64,000 nt of DNA, from positions 124,001-188,000 of the forward strand of contig NZ_SOAW01000002.1 of the NCBI RefSeq assembly GCF_004364645.1, written 5' to 3'. The translations under genes and the position numbers were made by a program. Origin of the DNA: Naumannella halotolerans (GTDB taxonomy: Bacteria; Actinomycetota; Actinomycetes; Propionibacteriales; Propionibacteriaceae). The notes beneath the pieces were generated by a model. The model did not search any database. It had not been told where the DNA came from and saw only the letters and a list, made by a program, of their open reading frames with translations. Positions 10,524-43,965 of this stretch are shown one piece after another (the first letter of the stretch is position 1; each line of letters begins with the position of its first letter).

Positions 10524-10600
10524 TGAGCGAGATCCGCCACTCGATCGCCGAACAGCCACGATTCGGGCCGAAATCGCGATCGAGTGTCCGATTTCGCTCA
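10524..10600. terminator. 77-bp long palindrome after the FBP gene
   Basis: The 25-bp arms (TGAGCGA...CACTCGATCGC against its complement) have three mismatches and enclose a 27-nt loop that itself contains a weaker dyad (CGATTCGGGCCGAAATCG). It starts 11 bp after the stop codon and ends 13 bp before the hutU operator. A terminator or insulator between FBP and hutU is the simplest reading. Confidence 0.6.
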
Positions 10601-34064: not shown

Positions 34065-34143
34065 ACACCGCTGAACTGGCTCCAGATGCGCGATTAGGCG
34101 CCCAACCCGCCAGAATCACGAACTGGCGCCACGGCAGCGGTGT
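34065..34143. repeat. 79-bp palindromic repeat, copy 1
   Basis: The copy begins ACACCGCTG and ends CAGCGGTGT. Inner arms are TGGCTCCAG and CTGGCGCCA. It is exactly the same length as the copies at 34192, 40466, 41016 and 43742. Confidence 0.85.
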
Positions 34144-34191
34144 CCCTCGGCGCGGCTCTCCCCAAAATGCATGTAGATGCCCCGTCAGACC

Positions 34192-34270
34192 ACACCGCTG
34201 TGGTGGCTCCACACACTGGAACCGGTCTCAGACCCGCCCACTTGCCCATCGGGCGCCACGGCAGCGGGGG
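34192..34270. repeat. 79-bp palindromic repeat, copy 2
   Basis: The left end is ACACCGCTG followed by TGGTGGCTCCA. The right end GCGCCACGGCAGCGG matches copy 1 but has lost the final GTGT. It lies 48 bp after copy 1 in the same orientation. Confidence 0.8.
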
Positions 34271-34492
34271 TTCGGCAGGGAGTTGCGGCCGCGATCCCGG
34301 GTCGGACGGTGCGGGCGCTCGAGATCGATGCTCGCCGACACACCGCGCATTCGCCGCGAGCGGGCGCGTGTCGGATCGGGGTCCCCGGGTGGGCCTCGGG
34401 GGAAACCCACCCGGGAACGTCAGCCGAACTTACCCGCCACAACCGTCCGGAAAACCCCTACACGCCGAGTCGCCTCCACCCGTTCTCCGACA

Positions 34493-34498
34493 TAGGCT
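34493..34498 (+). promoter_or_regulatory. -10 hexamer of a leaderless promoter (MFS gene)
   Basis: TAGGCT ends seven bases before the GTG start at 34506. No ribosome binding site is visible, so the mRNA probably starts at the GTG. Confidence 0.5.
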
Positions 34499-34505
34499 GC
34501 GCTGC

Positions 34506-35852
34506 GTGGATTTCTTCCGCGCATTGCGCCGGCTCTGGCGGCACCGGTTGTTCCGGCGACTGCTCGCACTCCGGGTCGCCACCCAGGCCAGTGACGCGGC
34601 GATGCAGGTGGGGCTCGCCGCCTACGTCCTGTTCTCCCCCAACGAGCAACCCGACGCGGGCTCGATCGTCGCCGTCCTGGCGATCACCTTGTTGCCGTTC
34701 TCCCTGGTGGGGCCGTTCATCTCGCCCAGTCTGGACCGCTGGAACCGGCGCCAGGTGTTCGTCGTCACCGACATGGTCCGGGTCGTGCTGACGACCGGGG
34801 TTGCCGTCCTGGTCGTCTTCGGCGAGCGTTCGGGGCTGGCGATGGCGGCCATCTACGTACTGGCCCTGCTGGCGCTCAGCATCAACCGGTTCATGATGGC
34901 CGGGATGTCGGCGGCGCTGGCCCGTACCGTCGATCCCGACGAGTACCTGCTGGCGTCCTCCACGATGCCGATCGTCGGTCCGATCGGTGGTGCCATCGGG
35001 GCCGGTACGGCAGCCGCGATCCGGCTGATCGGCGGAGCCTCGATGCCGACCTGGCAGGCGGATGCGCTGATCTTCGTCGCCGCCGCGATCGGTTTCGCGA
35101 TCGGCATCCAGCTGGCGTTGCGGATCCCGCGTACCGCATTGGGTCCGGATCCGGAGGAGGCCGAACTGGTGCCGATGCGGCGCCAGGCCGGTCTGGTACT
35201 GGGGGATCTGGCCGACGCGGTTCGGCACCTGCGGGAACGCTCCACCGCCGGCCTCGGCCTGTTGATCGTGCTCGCCCAGCGGATCACCTACGGGATGGTC
35301 ACGGTGAGCGCGATCCTGCTCTATCGGAACTGGTTCAACACCGTCGACCAGGTCGACACCGCACTCGCACAACTGGGGATCTGGCTGGCCGCCACCGGCG
35401 CCGGTTACATCGCCGCAGCACCGATCGCCCCGATCATCGGTCGCCGGTTCGGGGTCCGGAACATGCTGCTGGCCGGGATCGTGCTCTGTGCGGTGGTGCA
35501 GCTCGTACCGGGATCGATCTTCACCCAGGCGACCCTGGTGATCGCCGCCTTCTTCCTCGGCCTGGGGTCGCAGGCTTTGAAGGTCGGGGTGGACACGCTG
35601 ATCCAGGCCCAGGTGGACGACGAGTTCAAGGGACGCTCGTTCGTGCTCTACGACATGATCTTCAATGTCGCCCTGGTCACCGGTGGCGCACTGGTCTGGT
35701 GGCTGTTCCCCAGCGACGGTCACACCCTGGCCGGGTTCGTCGCCCTGGCGGTGGTGTTCGCACTGATCGCCGCCGTCTTCGCCGTCGCTTCCCGGCGGAT
35801 CGGTGTGAGCGTCTTCGACCGGGGCACCGAACGCGCGATCGTGGGCAACTGA
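34506..35852 (+). CDS. MFS transporter
   Basis: A 448-residue membrane protein with about 12 hydrophobic segments in two halves and a charged central loop (residues 205-235). The segment ISPSLDRWNRRQV between helices 2 and 3 corresponds to the MFS loop motif of MFS_3/exporter-type proteins. GTG 34506 gives the protein starting MDFFRAL; it is just downstream of a -10-like TAGGCT. The exported compound cannot be told. It stands alone between the repeat-bearing gap and a quinone reductase gene. Confidence 0.87.
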   Translation: MDFFRALRRLWRHRLFRRLLALRVATQASDAAMQVGLAAYVLFSPNEQPDAGSIVAVLAITLLPFSLVGPFISPSLDRWNRRQVFVVTDMVRVVLTTGVAVLVVFGERSGLAMAAIYVLALLALSINRFMMAGMSAALARTVDPDEYLLASSTMPIVGPIGGAIGAGTAAAIRLIGGASMPTWQADALIFVAAAIGFAIGIQLALRIPRTALGPDPEEAELVPMRRQAGLVLGDLADAVRHLRERSTAGLGLLIVLAQRITYGMVTVSAILLYRNWFNTVDQVDTALAQLGIWLAATGAGYIAAAPIAPIIGRRFGVRNMLLAGIVLCAVVQLVPGSIFTQATLVIAAFFLGLGSQALKVGVDTLIQAQVDDEFKGRSFVLYDMIFNVALVTGGALVWWLFPSDGHTLAGFVALAVVFALIAAVFAVASRRIGVSVFDRGTERAIVGN

Positions 35853-35920
35853 CCCGGTTCGGCCGGCAGGCCGACGGCTCTGCGACGATGGTCCGGTCAA
35901 TGAGGATGAGGAGTGGGCCG

Positions 35921-36922
35921 ATGAAGGCACTACAGCTGACCGAGCTGGGCGTACCGTCCGATGCGTTGCATTACGTCACCGACGCGCCGGTTCCCGAGCC
36001 GGGGCCAGGGCAGGTACGGGTACGGGTGGCCGCCGCGCCGGCCAATTTCCCGGATGTGTTGATGTGTCAGGGGTTGTACCAGGACAAACCGCCGCTGCCG
36101 GCCGTCCTCGGTATCGAGTTGGCCGGTCTGGTCGACGCGGTGGGTCCCGAGGTCGATCGGTGGTCGATCGGTGACCGGGTGATCGCGCTGCCCGAGTTGG
36201 CACACGGAGGTTTCGCCGAGTACGCCCTGGCTCCGGCCGATCAACTGTTCGCAGCGCCACAGGGATTGGACGCCGCCCAAGCGGCGTCGCTGACCGTGGC
36301 CTATCAGACGGCCTGGTTCGCGCTGCACAGACGGGCCCGGTTGCAGCCCGGTGAGGTGGTGTTGGTGCATGCCGCCGCGGGCGGTGTCGGGAGTGCGACC
36401 GTGGAGTTGGCGAAGGCCGCCGGGGCGCAGGTGATCGCGGTCGTCGGCGGCGAGCGCAAGGCCGAGGTGGCTCGGTCGCTGGGCGCCGATCTGGTGGTCG
36501 ACCGCACGATCGACGACTTCGTGGCAGCGACCAAGGAGTTCACCGGTGGTCGCGGTGCCGACGTGATCTTCGATCCGGTCGGTGGTGACACCTACCGCAG
36601 GTCGACCAAGTGCATCGCCTGGGAGGGACGGATCCTGATCATCGGCTTCGCCGGTGGGCAGATCCAGGAGGTCGCACTGAATCACGTGTTGATCAAGAAC
36701 TATTCGATACTCGGTCTGGTCTGGGGCCGCTACCGGCAGCTGGCGCCGGAGACGATCCCTGCCTGCCATGTCGAGTTGAGCCGGCTGGCGGCCGAGGGCA
36801 GCATCCACCCGGTGATCGATTCGCGGCTGTCCCTGGCCGAACTGCCGCAGGGACTGATGCGGCTCGCCGCCGGGGACACCGTCGGCCGGGTGGCCTGGGT
36901 CGACGAGACGGTCGACTTCTGA
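35921..36922 (+). CDS. NADPH:quinone oxidoreductase (zinc-independent MDR family)
   Basis: A 333-residue medium-chain reductase. The NAD(P)-binding motif AAAGGVGSATVELAKAAGAQ is near residue 149, and NFPDVLMCQGLYQDKPPLP near residue 46 is the usual quinone-oxidoreductase segment. No structural zinc Cys cluster is seen, consistent with the QOR subgroup. ATG 35921 has GAGGAG about ten bases upstream. It reduces quinones or enoyl/enone compounds; the natural substrate is unknown. It is 68 bp downstream of the MFS gene and could be co-transcribed. Confidence 0.92.
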   Translation: MKALQLTELGVPSDALHYVTDAPVPEPGPGQVRVRVAAAPANFPDVLMCQGLYQDKPPLPAVLGIELAGLVDAVGPEVDRWSIGDRVIALPELAHGGFAEYALAPADQLFAAPQGLDAAQAASLTVAYQTAWFALHRRARLQPGEVVLVHAAAGGVGSATVELAKAAGAQVIAVVGGERKAEVARSLGADLVVDRTIDDFVAATKEFTGGRGADVIFDPVGGDTYRRSTKCIAWEGRILIIGFAGGQIQEVALNHVLIKNYSILGLVWGRYRQLAPETIPACHVELSRLAAEGSIHPVIDSRLSLAELPQGLMRLAAGDTVGRVAWVDETVDF

Positions 36923-36991
36923 TCAGCTCTGGCACGACGCCGCCTCGAATGTTCCGGCATTGCGGTGACGACCGCTCCGCTGGGCTGGCCC

Positions 36992-37771
36992 TCAGCTGAG
37001 CGGGGCAGAGTGCCGCCGAACCAGCTCCTCGGCGAGTTGCCAGATCCGAGTACGGGCTGCCTCCGGGGCGAGGATCTCGATGTGTCACCGAACTGCAGGA
37101 GTTGGCGTACCGACTCGAGGTCGGGGTAGCCGACGACGGCGGTGCAGAATCCCTGGTCCGCATCGAACACCTCGCGGATCCGCGTACCCAGGATGCGTTT
37201 GGCCAGGTCGAAACGGTTCGTGGGTAGGCGGAAGGTGATGCTCACGCGCCCCTGTCTCTCTGTGTGCTGCTTCAGCGCTGCGGTACCGGATCCGCATCCG
37301 GCGTCGGTGACGCAGGGCCGAGGCGAGACCGGAGATATCGATCGCTGAGGCTGGTTCGGCGAACCAGGCAGTGCTGTCCACCAGCACCAGCTCGGCCAGT
37401 CGCAGCGGATTCGGGTCCTCGGGGGTGGCGACCTGCCGGGCGGCGATCTTGCGCGTGGCCGACTCCCATACCGCTGACAGGCCCAGGCGCTCGAGCTGCG
37501 CCGAGTCCAAACCGGCCACGGAGAGGGCCTCCAGCTCCGGTGGGTCCAGATGGGACGCATTGAGTCGCGCACCCGGCAGCAGGACGATCCCGCCGTTGCG
37601 TCCTCGCTCGGCATAGACCGGCACCCCAGCTGCCGAGAGCGCCTCGACGTCGCGCAGCACCGTCCGCCGGGACACTCCCAAGCGCTCGGCGAGCTCGCCG
37701 GTGGTGATCCGCTGGCGGGTCTGCAGGAGCAGCAGCAGATGCAGCAGCCTCGAGGCCTTCATGCCGAGCAT
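36992..37771 (-). pseudogene. WYL-domain (YafY-like) regulator, frameshifted and missing its core
   Basis: The N-terminal DeoR-type helix-turn-helix is intact (TGELAERLGVSRRTVLRDVE) and runs to about residue 155 (RRRMRIRYRS). The sense then jumps to another frame (VSITFRLPTNRFDLAKRI up to LESVRQLLQFGD), and near 37085 returns to the first frame (IEILAPEAARTRIWQLAEEL) to end at a TGA at 36992-36994. The WYLVG core expected between the two halves is absent. Two opposite frameshifts plus an internal loss suggest real decay. It is divergent from a VOC gene, with a GACAG-GTT-CTGTC dyad between them, a pairing common for this regulator class. Confidence 0.8.
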
Positions 37772-37787
37772 TCTCCACCGAAATGGT

Positions 37788-37800
37788 GACAGGTTCTGTC
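37788..37800. promoter_or_regulatory. Candidate WYL-regulator operator
   Basis: GACAG and CTGTC flank a 3-bp spacer, forming a perfect dyad 17 bp from the regulator start and 57 bp before the VOC gene. Confidence 0.5.
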
Positions 37801-37856
37801 GCGATCACACGATCGACTGGGTGTCGACCGGAAGACCACCGCATCGAGGAGTGTCC

Positions 37857-38222
37857 ATGCCCGCACCGAACCTGTTCCTGATCGGCGTCAGCGATGCCGC
37901 CTCCGCCACGACCTTCTACAGCGACCTGTTCGAGATCGAACCGACCTTCGTCAGCCCCCGCTACGTCGCTTTCGAGGTTGCCCCCGGCGTGCTGTTCGCG
38001 TTGTGGACGGGGTACCGCGAGCAGGTGCTCGCCGGCGCGCCACGTACCAGCGAAGTGGGGTTGATGGTGCCCGGACAGGCCTCGGCGATCGACGAGCTGT
38101 TCGCGAGCTGGGTGCAGAAGGGGGTCCAGGTCGTGCAGCCACCGCACGAAGCGGTGTTCGGACGTACCTTCGTGATCAGCGATCCCGACGGCAACCTGAT
38201 CCGAGTCTCACCGGTGGACTGA
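37857..38222 (+). CDS. VOC-superfamily (glyoxalase/bleomycin-resistance-like) protein
   Basis: A 121-residue protein with the paired beta-alpha-beta-beta-beta modules of the vicinal oxygen chelate fold. The opening LFLIGVSDAASATTFYSDLF and the ending FVISDPDGNLIRVSPVD are typical. ATG 37857 has GAGGAGTG upstream. Family members include glyoxalases, antibiotic-binding proteins and dioxygenases; the specific activity cannot be assigned. It is divergent from the decayed WYL regulator, which probably once controlled it. Confidence 0.82.
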   Translation: MPAPNLFLIGVSDAASATTFYSDLFEIEPTFVSPRYVAFEVAPGVLFALWTGYREQVLAGAPRTSEVGLMVPGQASAIDELFASWVQKGVQVVQPPHEAVFGRTFVISDPDGNLIRVSPVD

Positions 38223-38502
38223 CCTGCGTCCAGGCGAGCGCTGCGGGCAGGTCGCGCGGCCGAAACTGCCCACGCCGCGGATCGGTGACATGATCAACAA
38301 GGATCCGTGGCCAGCACTACCGGCGCAAGATCAACTTCTACCGAACTCCCGTTCACCCCAGCTCCACCTGCTGCCCGCCGGCAGGCCAGTTCACGTTGAT
38401 CAACCTGTCGACGGCAGGACATCTCGATGTCACCCACGATCCTTAGCGTCGATACCGAAGCGCTTCACGAGTTTGTCCACACCCCCCAAGGGAGAAACCC
38501 TG

Positions 38503-40386
38503 ATGCTGTTCGTTTTCCATCCCCCCACTGCTCCACGATCATCTCGGCGATCGACCTCGACGAATCGGATCGCCCTCGCTGCCCGTACCGTCACCGTCCT
38601 CGGGACCGCGACCGTCCTCGGCCTCGGCAGCGCCCTGAGCGGGTACGGCACCGACACCGCGCAGGCGGCACCCAAGGCAGTCCAACCCGACACCTACGAG
38701 GGCCAGGTGGAGGTGGTACGCGGCGGCGCCGAGGATCCCGAGGTGCTCACCGGCACCGTCTTCAACGACAAGGACGAGGACTCGACCAAGGACCGTCGGG
38801 AGAAGGGCATCTCCGGTGTCGCGGTCTCCAACGGCATCGACGTGGTCACCACCGACAGCGACGGCGTCTACGAGCTGCCGGTCCGCGACAACATGACCGT
38901 CTTCGTCACCCAGCCGGCGGGTTGGCAGGTCCCGGTCGATGAGTACCAGTTCGCCCAGTTCAGCTGGAATCACCTGCCTGAGGGGTCCCCCGATCTGAAG
39001 TACGGCGGCATCGCCCCGACCGGCGACCTGCCGAAGGCGGTCAACTTCCCGATGGCGAAGTCCAAGGCGACCGCCCGTACCGATCAGAGCTGCCCGATCG
39101 CCTCCGACACCCAGGCCTACGACATGACCGAGATCGGATACGCCCGGGACGGCGCCGTCTCCGACCTGGCCCAGCGTGAGGACTACGGCGGCTGTGGTGT
39201 GCTGCTGCTCGGTGACAATGTCGGCGACGACCTGTCGTTGAACCCGGCGTTGAAGGACATCTACCGCGACACGAACGGTCCGATCCGGGCGGTTCTCGGC
39301 AACCACGACATGGACTTCGATGCACCGGACCAGTCACACATGGCCGACACCTTCCGCAACGACTTCGGCCCCACCTCGTTCTCCTACGATGTCGGTGAGA
39401 TCCACTTCGTGGTGCTGAACAGCATCGAGTACCCGCTGCCGGCGGGCAGTGATCGCCAGTACAACGAGAAGATCACCGCCGAGCACCTGCAGTGGCTCGA
39501 GAATGATCTTGAGAATGTGGCGAAGAACAAGCAGATCGTGATCGCCAGCCACGCCCCGATCGTCAACTATCGGGAGATGGTCGTCGACAACGCACCCGAG
39601 CTGTACGAACTGCTGGCGGGTCGGAAGGTGATCACCATCGGTGGTCACACCCACACCCTGGAGAACCTGCCCGCCGGAAGTCAGCGCGCGGAGTGGGCCG
39701 AGAGCGGAATCGATGAGCTGCCCTTCCGGCAGCTGGTCGCCGGTGCGGTGTCGGGTGACTGGTACTCCGGTGACCTGAACTCCGAGGGCCTGCCGCTCGC
39801 GCTGATGTCCGACGGTGCGCAACCCGGTGTGATGACCCTCGACGTCCGGGGTTCGTCGATCACCCCGCGCTACACCATCCGCCGGGAGTCCGACGAACTG
39901 CAGATGGGACTGGGTATCAACTCCCCGTCCTGGCGTGAATGGGCCGAGGAGGCTCAGCAGTGGCAGGACAACGACAAGGAAGGCGAGGCCCCTGAACTGG
40001 GCGATGCGAAGGTGATCGACCGGGCCGAGCTGGAATCGGGGGAGACCTGGCTGACGACCAACTTCTACCCCGGCAACATCAAGTCCCGAGTCGAGGTACG
40101 GATCGACGGCGGCCGTACCCGCGTCGCCGAGCACACCCAGCCGAACACCGGCGAGGAGTTGCGTGACGGTTGGGAGTGGGCCGATCCGTACGGGGCCACC
40201 CGCAACCTGCAGCATGACGGGAACGTACCCACGAACTCGTCTCACCTGTGGCGCTACGAACTGCCCGCCGACCTGTCGCCGGGCACCCACACCGCGAAGG
40301 TGACCGCCACCGACGAGTACGGGCGCGAGTTCACCGAGACGATCCGGTTCACCGTGACCGAGGAGCGGACCGTCCAGACCGGCTGA
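38503..40386 (+). CDS. Secreted calcineurin-like metallophosphoesterase with N-terminal beta domain
   Basis: A 627-residue exported protein. A signal peptide (hydrophobic ARTVTVLGTATVLGLGSALSG, cleavage near AQA-AP, about residue 57) is followed by a carboxypeptidase-regulatory/SdrD-B-like domain (LTGTVFNDKDEDSTKDRR), the metallophosphoesterase core and a calcineurin-like C-terminal domain. Metal motifs seen are ASDTQAYD, GDNVGD, GNHDMDF, SHAPI and GGHTHT. ATG 38503 is favoured, with GGGAG eight bases before it; upstream in-frame codons do not look like protein. The role is probably phosphate scavenging or envelope phosphodiester cleavage. The protein ends in a 33-bp terminator hairpin region. 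Confidence 0.9.
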   Translation: MLFVFHPPTAPRSSRRSTSTNRIALAARTVTVLGTATVLGLGSALSGYGTDTAQAAPKAVQPDTYEGQVEVVRGGAEDPEVLTGTVFNDKDEDSTKDRREKGISGVAVSNGIDVVTTDSDGVYELPVRDNMTVFVTQPAGWQVPVDEYQFAQFSWNHLPEGSPDLKYGGIAPTGDLPKAVNFPMAKSKATARTDQSCPIASDTQAYDMTEIGYARDGAVSDLAQREDYGGCGVLLLGDNVGDDLSLNPALKDIYRDTNGPIRAVLGNHDMDFDAPDQSHMADTFRNDFGPTSFSYDVGEIHFVVLNSIEYPLPAGSDRQYNEKITAEHLQWLENDLENVAKNKQIVIASHAPIVNYREMVVDNAPELYELLAGRKVITIGGHTHTLENLPAGSQRAEWAESGIDELPFRQLVAGAVSGDWYSGDLNSEGLPLALMSDGAQPGVMTLDVRGSSITPRYTIRRESDELQMGLGINSPSWREWAEEAQQWQDNDKEGEAPELGDAKVIDRAELESGETWLTTNFYPGNIKSRVEVRIDGGRTRVAEHTQPNTGEELRDGWEWADPYGATRNLQHDGNVPTNSSHLWRYELPADLSPGTHTAKVTATDEYGREFTETIRFTVTEERTVQTG

Positions 40387-40400
40387 GCCGAGGGAACGCC

Positions 40401-40433
40401 AGTGCCCGAATCCGGCTGACGGATCCGGGCACT
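40401..40433 (+). terminator. Terminator hairpin after the metallophosphoesterase gene
   Basis: Stem arms AGTGCCCGAATCCG and CGGATCCGGGCACT (13 of 14 paired) with a 5-nt loop lie 15 bp after the stop codon. Confidence 0.75.
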
Positions 40434-40465
40434 GTGCGTGTCTCGGGGCAGATGGCTCGACGCGT

Positions 40466-40544
40466 ACACCGCTGGAGTGGCTCCAGATCACGAATCGGGC
40501 GGATCCAACGCCGATTCCGGCGACTGGAGCCACCTCAGCGGTGT
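40466..40544. repeat. 79-bp palindromic repeat, copy 3 (best conserved)
   Basis: Its outer 21-bp arms pair at 19 of 21 positions (ACACCGCTGG...CTCCAG against CTGGAGCC...AGCGGTGT). The asymmetric middle (GGCGGATCCAACGCCGATTCC) is found reversed in the copy at 43742, so copies insert in both orientations. Confidence 0.9.
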
Positions 40545-40612
40545 GCCCGCGCTGGCAAGGCCGGTCGCGAAAGCCCTTGCTGACAACTCTCCGCGGGTTG
40601 CAGAGTGGGAAC

Positions 40613-40909
40613 GTGATTGCCACCACGATCGATCCGCGCGACCAGACTTCGGAGTTCGACGCCCCGACCTACCGGGTGTTCTTCTGGGAGGGCAATGGTG
40701 GATGCGCCTGCGAGGAGTGGGAGTTGAGCGAGGCCGATCTCGATGAAGTTCTCGAGTGGATCCCGGCACATTCCCACGGCCGGCCGCACAGTCTATGGGC
40801 GGTCGTCCGCGGTGGCCGCGACGAGGTGACGCAGATCCGGCTGCGCGGAATCGATCCACCTGCGGGTCCGGACACCTGGCCGGTCTGGGCCAAGGAGGAG
40901 CGCTGTTGA
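40613..40909 (+). CDS. Small conserved-looking protein of unknown function
   Basis: A 98-residue acidic protein that I do not recognise. It has an aromatic N-terminal half (YRVFFWEGNGG), a predicted helix (SEADLDEVLEWIPAHS) and a beta-like C-terminal half (SLWAVVRGGRDEVTQIRLRG). GTG 40613 is preceded by GGGA at short spacing. The fold pattern suggests a small cytosolic alpha-beta protein. The gene is bracketed by copies of the 79-bp palindrome, one on the left and a half copy plus a diverged copy on the right. Confidence 0.55.
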   Translation: MIATTIDPRDQTSEFDAPTYRVFFWEGNGGCACEEWELSEADLDEVLEWIPAHSHGRPHSLWAVVRGGRDEVTQIRLRGIDPPAGPDTWPVWAKEERC

Positions 40910-40929
40910 GCGGGTGCATCCGCTTCCAC

Positions 40930-40957
40930 CTCGACTCGAGAGCCACTCCAGCGGTGT
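40930..40957. repeat. Half copy of the 79-bp palindrome
   Basis: Only the right arm (GAGCCACTCCAGCGGTGT) and some inner sequence are recognisable. The expected left arm would fall in the 3' end of the small gene and is not conserved. Confidence 0.5.
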
Positions 40958-41015
40958 TCCTGCCATCTCATGCTGCCGCTGACCCGCGAGTTCGGCTGCC
41001 GCCACCCGGATGCCG

Positions 41016-41094
41016 ACACCGCTACCGCGGCGCCGACACCGCGATCAGAGAACCTCTGCGGCGATTCGACCGCCTGGAGCCAGGTCAGCGGTAT
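41016..41094. repeat. 79-bp palindromic repeat, copy 4 (diverged)
   Basis: It starts ACACCGCTA and ends CTGGAGCCAGGTCAGCGGTAT, exactly 79 bp apart. The left inner arm is poorly kept. Confidence 0.65.
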
Positions 41095-41146
41095 CCCCAC
41101 CTGCCACGGCCACTATTGCGGTGACCCTCGGGGACCACCATCACGA

Positions 41147-42622
41147 TCAGTCGCGGGACTGCCACCACTCCAGCAGCACCTGCTTGGCAGCTTCCTCACC
41201 GAGCGGGCCGTTGTCGATCCGCTGCTCCAACAAGAACTTGTAGGCCTGGCCGACCTCCTTGCCGGGTCCGATGCCCAGGATCGCCATGATCTGATCGCCG
41301 TTGAGGTCCGGGCGCATCGCACCCAACTCCTCCTCCGCGGCGAGGGCGTCGATCCGGTCCTCCAGATCGTCATAGGCCCGACGCAGACGCTCGGCCTTGC
41401 GCTTGTTCCGGGTGGTGCAATCGGCCCGGGTGAGGATGTGCAGACGCTCCAGCTGATCACCGGCATCGCGGACGTAGCGGCGAACCGCAGAGTCGGTCCA
41501 CTGGCCGTCGCCGTACCCGTGGAAGCGCAGGTGCAGTTCCACCAGCTTCGCCACCGCAGCGATCTCATCGGAGGAGAACCGCAGGGCTTTCAGCCGCTTT
41601 TTCACCAGCTTCGCCCCGACCACATCGTGATGATGGAAGGTGACCTTGCCGTCGTCGACGAACCTGCGGGTGGCGGGCTTGCCGACATCGTGCAGCAGTG
41701 CCGCCAACCGGTTGATCAAATCGGGTGCGTGCCCGCGCCGCTTCTCCAGGTCGATCGCCTGGTCCAACACCACCAGGGAGTGCTCGAAGACGTCCTTGTG
41801 CCGGTGGTGCTCGTCCACCTCCAACCGCATCGCGGGCAGCTCGGGCAGGACGTGGTCGGCGATCCCGGTCGCCACCAGCATCGCCAACCCGGCCCGCGGC
41901 TTGTCGGCGAGCAACAACTTCGACAGCTCATCGCGTACCCGCTCGGCGGAGATGATCTGGATCCGATCGGCCATCGCGGTCATCGCCGACAGCACCTCCG
42001 GCGCCGGCTGCATCTGCAACTGCGCGGCGAATCGGGCCGCCCGCATCATCCGCAGCGGATCGTCGGAGAACGACTGTTCCGGCGTACCGGGGGTACGCAG
42101 GACGCTCTGGGCAAGATCGGCCAAACCGCCGTAGGGGTCGGTGAAGGTGTTCTCGCCGACCTTGATCGCCATCGCGTTCACCGTGAAATCGCGCCGGACC
42201 AGATCGCCCTGCAGAGTGTCACCGAAGGCCACCTCCGGTTTGCGCGACTCCGGCCGGTAGATGTCGGCACGATAGGTGGTGATCTCGACGACCCAGTCCG
42301 GACTCTCACCGACATCGCGCGGGCCCTCGGTCGGGATCCGGGCGCCGATGGTGCCGAACTCCTTGCCGATCGCCCAGACCGCGGCGCCCTTGATCCCGGA
42401 GGTATACGAACTCAGCAACCTCTCGATCTCGTCGGGGCGGGCATCGGTGGTGAAATCCAGGTCGTGGCCGAGTCGGCCCAACAAGGCGTCGCGGACGCTG
42501 CCACCCACCAGATGAAGTTCGTACCCGGCGTCGGCGAAGCGCACACCGAGCCGCTCCACCACCGGTGCGATGCGCAGCAGCTCGGCGACGGCGTTCGCCT
42601 GGACTTCGGACAGATCGGGCAC
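41147..42622 (-). CDS. cca: CCA tRNA nucleotidyltransferase
   Basis: A 491-residue enzyme that adds or repairs the 3'-CCA end of tRNAs. The nucleotidyltransferase head shows HLVGGSVRDALLGR near residue 37 and HDLDFTTDA with the catalytic aspartates. RRDFTVNAMA and ERVRDEL belong to the tRNA-NT/RNA-binding parts, and an HD phosphohydrolase domain follows (LLHDVGKPATRR near residue 308). GTG 42622 is used. TACAGT ends eight bases upstream on the minus strand, and no ribosome binding site is seen, so the mRNA may be nearly leaderless. cca beside murJ/sigM is a standard actinobacterial arrangement. Confidence 0.96.
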   Translation of the reverse strand: MPDLSEVQANAVAELLRIAPVVERLGVRFADAGYELHLVGGSVRDALLGRLGHDLDFTTDARPDEIERLLSSYTSGIKGAAVWAIGKEFGTIGARIPTEGPRDVGESPDWVVEITTYRADIYRPESRKPEVAFGDTLQGDLVRRDFTVNAMAIKVGENTFTDPYGGLADLAQSVLRTPGTPEQSFSDDPLRMMRAARFAAQLQMQPAPEVLSAMTAMADRIQIISAERVRDELSKLLLADKPRAGLAMLVATGIADHVLPELPAMRLEVDEHHRHKDVFEHSLVVLDQAIDLEKRRGHAPDLINRLAALLHDVGKPATRRFVDDGKVTFHHHDVVGAKLVKKRLKALRFSSDEIAAVAKLVELHLRFHGYGDGQWTDSAVRRYVRDAGDQLERLHILTRADCTTRNKRKAERLRRAYDDLEDRIDALAAEEELGAMRPDLNGDQIMAILGIGPGKEVGQAYKFLLEQRIDNGPLGEEAAKQVLLEWWQSRD

Positions 42623-42630
42623 GACGGATC

Positions 42631-42636
42631 ACTGTA
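42631..42636 (-). promoter_or_regulatory. -10 hexamer of the cca promoter
   Basis: On the minus strand TACAGT ends eight bases before the GTG start at 42622, consistent with a leaderless or nearly leaderless message. Confidence 0.45.
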
Positions 42637-42693
42637 GCCAATCCCGCCCGGACGGGCCTGATCACGACCGAGGCTGTACCCAGCTCGCCAGAC

Positions 42694-42750
42694 CTGTTCC
42701 GCAGCACTTGCAGCCATCGACGCTGGATAGGTCAATCTACTGCGGAACAG
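42694..42750. repeat. 57-bp palindromic repeat, copy C
   Basis: Terminal arms CTGTTCCGCAG and CTGCGGAACAG are identical to those of copy A, and the length is the same. The interior differs from copies A and B and pairs poorly. Confidence 0.75.
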
Positions 42751-42941
42751 ATGCACGAGATGCGGCGGCCCCAGCCCTCCGCTCCGGAGTGGGTGCGTCC
42801 TCGACGGCGTCCACGAGGAGTCGACTTTCCTCCCGGGCGCCGCCCGCAGCGACTACACCCGGTCGCAGCAGCGAACGACGATCTGGCGGGGGCGACCCTC
42901 GGGCTCGTAGCTCCCGATGACATCGTCTCGCCGGTACGTGA

Positions 42942-43433
42942 CTACAGCCGCCGGTACATGATGTGCAGCCCGACCAAGCCGTCTCGTCGGTGGTCGAAGG
43001 CCTCCGGCACGGTGGCCAGGATCTCGAACCCCAGCGACTGCCACAGCCGTACCGCGGTGGTGTTGGTTTCCACCACGGCGTTGAACTGGATCGCCCGGTA
43101 CCCCTGCTCTCGGCACCAGCCGATCATGTACTCCCCCAGCGCCCGGCCGACCCCGCGACCACGAGCCGCGGGCGAAACCATGAAGCTGGCCGTCGCGACG
43201 TGGGAGCCACGGGCTGGCCGGTTCGGGCCCATCTTCGCCGAACCGAGCACCGTCTCGGTGGTCTCGTCGACGGCGACGACGGTCTGTCCGGGCGGGGGTT
43301 CCAGCCACAGCGCCTTCGCCTGCTCCGAACTCAGGTCCTCGGGATAGGCATAGGTCTCCCCTGCCGCCACGGTCTCGGCAAAGAAGGGGTGGATCTGTTC
43401 CCAGTCGGCATCGGTGGCCGGTCGGATCCTCAT
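42942..43433 (-). CDS. GNAT-family N-acetyltransferase
   Basis: A 163-residue acetyltransferase. It opens with MRIRPATDADWEQI and carries the acetyl-CoA-binding motif VSPAARGRGVGRALGEYMI (V/I-x-x-x-x-R-G-x-G-x-A, about residue 90), followed by FNAVVETNTTAVRLWQSLGF. ATG 43433 gives the usual family start; TAGCGT ends eight bases upstream on the minus strand, so a short or absent leader is likely. The acceptor substrate is unknown. Confidence 0.9.
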   Translation of the reverse strand: MRIRPATDADWEQIHPFFAETVAAGETYAYPEDLSSEQAKALWLEPPPGQTVVAVDETTETVLGSAKMGPNRPARGSHVATASFMVSPAARGRGVGRALGEYMIGWCREQGYRAIQFNAVVETNTTAVRLWQSLGFEILATVPEAFDHRRDGLVGLHIMYRRL

Positions 43434-43741
43434 GGGTACGGACGCTAGCGCTACGGCTGGCCACTGCGACAGCAACTTCTGCCCGGGCCAACGCTCGGTG
43501 AACCACCGGCCGGCTCACTCGGAGACGACTCCGCGGCGGCTGGTGTCCGCGGCAGCTGGTGACGGCCGGTGTCCGTGGCGACGCGTGTCCGTGATGGCTC
43601 TTGGGAATTTTCGGTTGCTCAGCCACTAGAACCGACGACTCATCACCAGCCACCCGCCATCCGAGCTGCCGCAGTGGAACACCCCCCTCAGCGGTTCGTT
43701 AGGTGGTAAGGGAACTTGCGCGGGTGGCGACGGTGAGTCGG

Positions 43742-43820
43742 AACACCGCTGGAGTGGCTCCAGACGCAGGAATCGGCGTTCGATCCACCCGTTTCACGAC
43801 CTGGAGCCACGAAAACGGAG
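43742..43820. repeat. 79-bp palindromic repeat, copy 5 (inverted orientation)
   Basis: The left arm ACACCGCTGGAGTGGCTCCAG is identical to copy 3. Read as the reverse complement, the middle (GGATCGAACGCCGATTCC) matches copy 3 almost base for base, so this copy is inverted. The right outer arm has decayed. Confidence 0.85.
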
Positions 43821-43965
43821 TACCGCGCCCCTGGGCAGCCCACAGCCCCAGCCACCGCAGCCGACGACCACAACCCCAGCCACCCACAGCCGGCTGACGA
43901 CCCCCGCCTGCCGATCGATGCACCCCGCCCAGCGTTTGCGGCGCGGCTTCCCGCGCGTCGGCTCC

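Follow-up and report, generated by a model that had tools for sequence, protein, structure and literature searches.

Among bacterial repeats served by a dedicated domesticated enzyme, REP sequences and REPINs are the best known, and their enzyme is described as an HUH transposase. In REPIN/RAYT systems, one dedicated gene is flanked by its own type of repeat, and a single genome can hold several repeat families (PMC3116915, PMC6006769). The palindromic elements described here, hereafter called dyads, resemble REPINs in that they are inverted pairs of short conserved sequences that form a hairpin, lie between genes, and are present in many copies. However, the dyad arm itself forms no hairpin, the CGTC foot is absent, and the candidate partner is a DUF559 nuclease. 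The dyads also resemble the CGTC-tagged palindromic repeats (PMC3733652), which are palindromic, occur mostly as dimers, and have no known dedicated transposase, but they lack the CGTC tag at their ends (1 of 46 arms in genome G154). A further likeness is to the AbiEi antitoxins of type IV toxin-antitoxin systems, which bind inverted repeats and autoregulate (PMC7319586). AbiEi models are matched, weakly to moderately, by the N-terminal region of the DUF559 proteins discussed below, in which the AbiEi-like region is instead fused to a nuclease domain.

Results

Five dyads of fixed length in the window

The window is a stretch of 64,000 nucleotides from the 3.47-Mb genome of Naumannella halotolerans (G000), corresponding to positions 124001 to 188000 of contig C2. 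A first-pass annotation of this DNA had described five palindromes of 79 bp, all of which were recovered on both strands by using an arm pattern and a covariance model. The arm pattern ACACCGCTNNNNTGGCTCCAG has 9 matches in the window versus 0.32 in shuffled sequences. Covariance model R1, built from 24 genome copies, identified the five dyads with E values of 2e-17 to 4e-9 on the better strand, and its next-best match in the window has an E value of 0.048. Each dyad has the arm ACACCGCTGnnGTGGCTCCAGAT at one end and the same arm reversed at the other, with a middle of 33 bp between them, and the z-scores of the hairpins lie between -2.1 and -8.2. Two positions required adjustment: the copy reported at 43742 exists with its in-register start at 43743, and the half copy reported at 40930-40957 is present as a single arm at 40937-40957 on the minus strand.

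34065-34143, no strand assigned: 79-bp dyad, copy 1, in a divergent gap; R1 scores of 74.5 and 71.6 bits on the two strands
34192-34270, no strand assigned: 79-bp dyad, copy 2; R1 score of 59.6 bits, right end degenerate
40466-40544, no strand assigned: 79-bp dyad, copy 3; best-preserved hairpin, RNA fold of -52 kcal/mol, z -8.2
40937-40957, minus strand: half copy with 2 mismatches to the arm pattern
41016-41094, no strand assigned: 79-bp dyad, copy 4; R1 score of 46.6 bits, left half degenerate
43743-43821, no strand assigned: 79-bp dyad, copy 5; its middle and that of copy 3 are inverted relative to each other

When a partner arm for the half copy was sought in the 79-bp frame, none was found. 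Copy 4 begins 52 bp past the 3′ end of a gene resembling CCA-adding tRNA nucleotidyltransferase, a name that was read from its sequence without a family search; by this gene, the nearest named relatives are Granulicoccus, Microlunatus, Tessaracoccus, and other Propionibacteriales. The reported inversion between copies 3 and 5 was borne out, since their middles are 81% identical when one is inverted and their flanks are at background. It was also correct that the 79-bp family has no copy elsewhere in the window, where the covariance model yields no other match below 0.04. The window does contain dyads of other families. Those at 885-955, 1011-1069, and 42692-42752 form a second family of 59 to 71 bp with the arm GTTCCGCAG, which has relatives on contig C3 of the same genome (53429, 71435, and 234199). 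The dyad at 10532-10592 is 61 bp long and has a CACTCGATCG arm, which it has in common with a 77-bp dyad near C3:304779-305717.

Dispersal in the Naumannella halotolerans genome

A genome-wide search for further copies of the 79-bp family yielded about 29, scattered across contigs C1 to C3, which favours a spread family. The confinement of the copies to gaps between genes, first noted in the window, holds for nearly all copies genome-wide: 27 of 28 are intergenic, in surrounding DNA that is 81% coding as judged by a home-made ORF caller. The copies at C3:207526, 207722, and 207874 have middles that are 90 to 97% identical and flanks that are largely unrelated, and the dyads at C2:26860 and at window position 43743, which are 141 kb apart, have middles that are 81% alike. 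Because near copies share their middles, including in inverted orientation, without sharing their flanks, we conclude that the 79-bp dyad moves as a unit. The presence of five copies within 10 kb makes short-range copying likely. With dispersal, both orientations, discrete boundaries, and intergenic location, the original proposal of a spread palindromic element (REP/MITE-like) is upheld.

Target-site duplications of 2 to 9 bp, with boundary shifts allowed, showed no excess, and most of the copies are old. A T is present at position -13 outside each arm, and thus beyond the 79 bp, in 25 of 46 half-flanks of own-genome copies (p 3e-9). The one other genome of the genus that was examined, G001, has no copies of the family, and the intergenic flanks in this single sister species were too diverged for a clean empty site to be recognized.

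Conservation of half-sites and spacing

Among old copies in G000, the middles are 45% identical (31% for shuffled middles) versus 77% for the half-arms. Halves taken from the same copy resemble each other no more closely than halves taken from different copies do (0.766 versus 0.773), and variable positions inside the genome pair at chance level. Therefore, each half matches a shared consensus rather than its partner arm. The inner CCAGAT motifs are spaced by 33 bp in 22 of 23 copies in G154 and in 24 of 27 own-genome copies, and by 32 to 35 bp in nearly all other copies across genera, with drift of the intervening sequence. We infer from the conserved arms and the fixed spacing that the dyads resemble two facing half-sites for a trans-acting protein.

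The first reading of the window had allowed for either a mobile element or a structured RNA. Although the former stands, the latter appears less likely because the halves within a copy are not more alike, pairing is at chance level, and Rfam contains no matching family for the 79-bp dyads (only miRNA matches were returned, far below the cut-off). Between genomes both arms do change together, but DNA half-sites account for this equally. A-tracts have the same sign in both halves for 20 of 21 copies in G154 but for 11 of 20 in the own genome, and so we make no general claim of polarity. Within G154, A-tract orientation reveals no significant bias relative to the replication strand (13 of 21, counted by hand with the origin guessed from GC skew) or to mRNA (6 versus 8).

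Related dyad families in other genomes

A covarying-arm model matched 21 of 198 genomes of the family Propionibacteriaceae, representing 8 of its 29 genera. Two more carriers were found in another family of the class, and there were none else in a class-wide sample of 247. Each carrier genome has an outer arm of its own, with left and right complementary, and the CCAGAT core is common to most of these genomes. Turnover of the arm between genomes preserves this complementarity (105 cells changed on both sides versus 40.5 in shuffles). All 44 arm matches in G154, with up to 3 mismatches, are paired at the fixed 79-bp spacing, and 18 of 21 copies there are no more than 25 bp from a stop codon, compared with 35% for random places in the same gaps. 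Similarly, 7 of 7 copies in G159 are near a stop codon (25% expected), and the tendency is weaker in other genomes. A survey of the pcnA locus in 60 relatives by using model R2 revealed no element, and phage and plasmid collections yielded one chance half-site match on a viral contig.

The gap between ispH and xseA, two genes named from sequence, permits a comparison of G172 and G049, in which the inner arms are near-identical and the middle and flanks have drifted; no dyad is present in this gap in G161 or G065. Other species of one genus (g8; loci L268, L270, L274, and L281) carry unrelated dyads in the same gap, for instance GTGTCCGAAATCTGC, AAACGGGACAAAGTTGCCGC, and GGTGGACCGAAAGGGGAC. Most copies in G085 (L088, L107, L110, and L133-L138) share long flanks in addition to the dyad, and thus a larger unit is duplicated there.

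DUF559 genes are bracketed by dyads

The first-pass annotation had suggested looking for a RAYT gene, but no match to PF01797 (the Y1/HUH tyrosine transposase) at E ≤ 1e-3 was obtained in nine genomes (G000, G001, and seven other carriers), eight of which carry dyads; control genomes did give matches. Moreover, the first 8 bases of the arms were examined in seven genomes, and no arm contains GTAG or GTGG, the two forms of the GT[AG]G foot. Membership in REPIN/RAYT was rejected on these two grounds. No RAYT is flanked by its own repeat family, and this flanked, RAYT-like position is occupied by DUF559 genes. The dyads do have the REPIN feature of two conserved, inverted repeats with a predicted hairpin, and the 79-bp family is therefore REPIN-like, yet outside REPIN/RAYT.

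Comparison of the immediate neighbours of dyads across genomes yielded one protein family, DUF559. A gene of this family is bracketed by two dyads in G000 (contig C3) and in G154, and adjoins one dyad in G009 and G168. Because these four genes were found by dyad adjacency, independent genes were tested separately in 3.24 Mb of DNA, which comprised 1.18 Mb of G154, all of the own contig C3, smaller pieces, and 80 loci that were picked by their CCA-adding-enzyme-like gene with dyads disregarded. Fourteen further DUF559 matches were obtained, with dyads on both sides of 7 (one bracketed gene, at 806046, was first noticed via its bracket and later recovered by the profile), on one side of 2, and on neither side of 5 at the threshold used. 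For 900-bp places picked at random, dyads flank both sides in 0.24 to 0.38% of cases and any side in 8 to 9%, a null of random places that leaves out the common local clustering of same-family dyads.

The six bracketed DUF559 genes in G154 correspond to six different dyad families (fam0, 1, 3, 4, 6, and 7), and four of these families are each represented by 9 to 14 copies within the 1.18 Mb. The definition of family fam4 rested on solo dyads and preceded the discovery of its DUF559 gene, in a randomly placed stretch (L260). Two of the bracketed genes are from Nocardioides (L175 and L180). In most brackets the 3′ dyad is about 10 bp or less from the stop codon (70 bp in the own genome), and around one DUF559 gene the two fam1 dyads are direct repeats of nearly the same sequence. 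Other occupants of same-family dyad brackets are toxin-antitoxin-like ORFs (twice with fam2, once with fam4) and three ordinary genes (MOSC-, GNAT-, and ADH-like), all named from their sequences without a family search, and therefore bracketing is not unique to DUF559. Nevertheless, the association of DUF559 genes with dyad brackets is well supported. A literature search, which left preprints and most subscription journals outside its range, found no paper tying DUF559 to palindromic repeats.

G000 C3:294419-295237: candidate DUF559 gene of the window's family, bracketed by dyads at 294520-294598 and 295307-295386
G000 C3:304779-305717: second DUF559 gene, with the near-perfect 77-bp dyad (CACTCGATCG arm) at its 5′ side
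G154 C1:791342-792439, 891074-892389, and 1149637-1150350: toxin-antitoxin ORFs in dyad brackets (two PIN-type, one ParE-like)

The Vsr-like nuclease domain DUF559 (PF04480) was detected in 9 of 11 proteins with scores of 22.9 to 37.9 bits against a cut-off of 20.6. Two bracketed proteins fall below the Pfam cut-off: that of L260 scores 20.1 bits, and that of L180 matches PF18741 alone (27.9 versus 38.2). The aligned proteins have conserved D and E-x-D columns, the putative catalytic residues, and the G154 gene at 197361-198212 is an example that encodes an intact protein. The DUF559 profile matches PDB 3hrl (7e-10) and, weakly, the mobile-intron protein 3r3p (E 0.013), which we take to be I-Bth0305I. 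This Vsr-like homing endonuclease likewise uses a distantly related nuclease domain in mobility, but it is encoded within an intron, whereas the DUF559 gene is enclosed by a pair of dyads belonging to a dispersed repeat. With the AbiEi models of PADLOC, the N-terminal half gives a match in 6 of 7 proteins; the AbiEi-like matches obtained with Pfam are weak, and for some of the proteins PADLOC gives stronger ones.

The candidate gene of the window's family is 5′-truncated. Its nuclease half aligns with relatives, the first 90 to 110 residues or so are missing, and the upstream reading frame passes through a dyad. The family may thus be fading in G000, with a bracketed gene that lacks its N-terminal part. 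The arms in G000 are still conserved despite this incomplete candidate, which counts against a DUF559 protein as the partner. Because the DUF559 scan of this genome covered mainly C3, an intact partner gene may exist elsewhere in it.

Discussion

The dyads disperse as discrete units, conserve their half-sites and the spacing between them, form genome-specific families, and are associated with the DUF559 genes that they bracket. On balance, we favour the interpretation that the dyads are REPIN-like palindromes, mobile but not autonomous, and that their half-sites are recognized by a DUF559 nuclease specific to the family, the gene for which is bracketed by the same family. A DUF559 nuclease would then be the likely partner of the dyads. 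Each half, consisting of an arm of about 23 conserved bp and a weaker inner motif, could serve as a half-site for the trans-acting protein, with two such half-sites having to face each other at fixed spacing. The N-terminal part of the DUF559 protein may recognize the arm, which we propose because AbiEi proteins bind inverted repeats (PMC7319586). Two DUF559 molecules would meet on facing half-sites, which would explain the fixed spacing, and the nuclease domain would nick or cut at the dyad. Repair or copying would then take the dyad to a new site, often just beyond a stop codon, where the damage would be smallest, and solo dyads would be the dispersed derivatives.

Pairs of dyads might instead be the ends of cassettes, mobilising the enclosed DNA via an unlinked recombinase, with DUF559 and toxin-antitoxin genes as cargo. 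The two PIN-type modules, the ParE-like module, and the three ordinary genes that also lie in same-family pairs are consistent with this idea, as are the fam1 direct repeats. It nevertheless appears unlikely, given that different families pair with different DUF559 genes in all six G154 cases, that brackets surround 7 of the 14 DUF559 genes identified independently of dyads, and that the majority of dyads are solo. We regard as less likely again a set of operator sites through which a regulator or defence effector controls itself and other genes, such that the spread reflects growth of a regulon rather than transposition. AbiEi antitoxins do autoregulate via inverted repeats (PMC7319586) and are matched at the N terminus, and the retention of arms while middles drift, also in the gap common to the two species G172 and G049, would suit an operator. 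However, the solo dyads of G154 are located mainly at 3′ ends rather than at promoters, and recent copies have near-identical middles within unrelated flanks.

The closeness to stop codons in G154 and G159 and the stability of the hairpins could also point to RNA 3′-end elements, namely bidirectional mRNA hairpins that act as terminators or stabilisers and spread through usefulness at gene ends. This seems improbable because variable positions inside a genome pair no more often than by chance, the G154 hairpins have no following U-tract, and polarity relative to mRNA there is unbiased. Most improbable of all, in our estimation, is that the dyads are an ordinary MITE, derived from a DDE transposon that has since lost its autonomous copy. 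Terminal inverted repeats, dispersal, and both orientations would be expected of such an element, but no full-length element with these ends was seen in G154, where every arm match is paired at 79 bp, target-site duplications showed no excess among copies that are mostly old, and old copies have kept their arms far better than their middles.

What is chiefly new here is a candidate partner for the dyads, namely the DUF559 genes bracketed by dyads of one family. More tentatively than for the dyads themselves, and with our judgment leaning slightly against, we raise the broader possibility of a widespread actinobacterial system in which every AbiEi-like/DUF559 nuclease has a family of palindromes of about 50 to 127 bp to itself and mobilises it, an arrangement that would be REP/RAYT-like through independent invention. 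If the proposed role of DUF559 is true, the principle of one nuclease for one repeat family would have evolved more than once, here with an unrelated nuclease. It would also suggest a function for DUF559, a domain of unknown function, and would offer a means of assigning enzymes to repeat families in the GC-rich genomes of Gram-positive bacteria.
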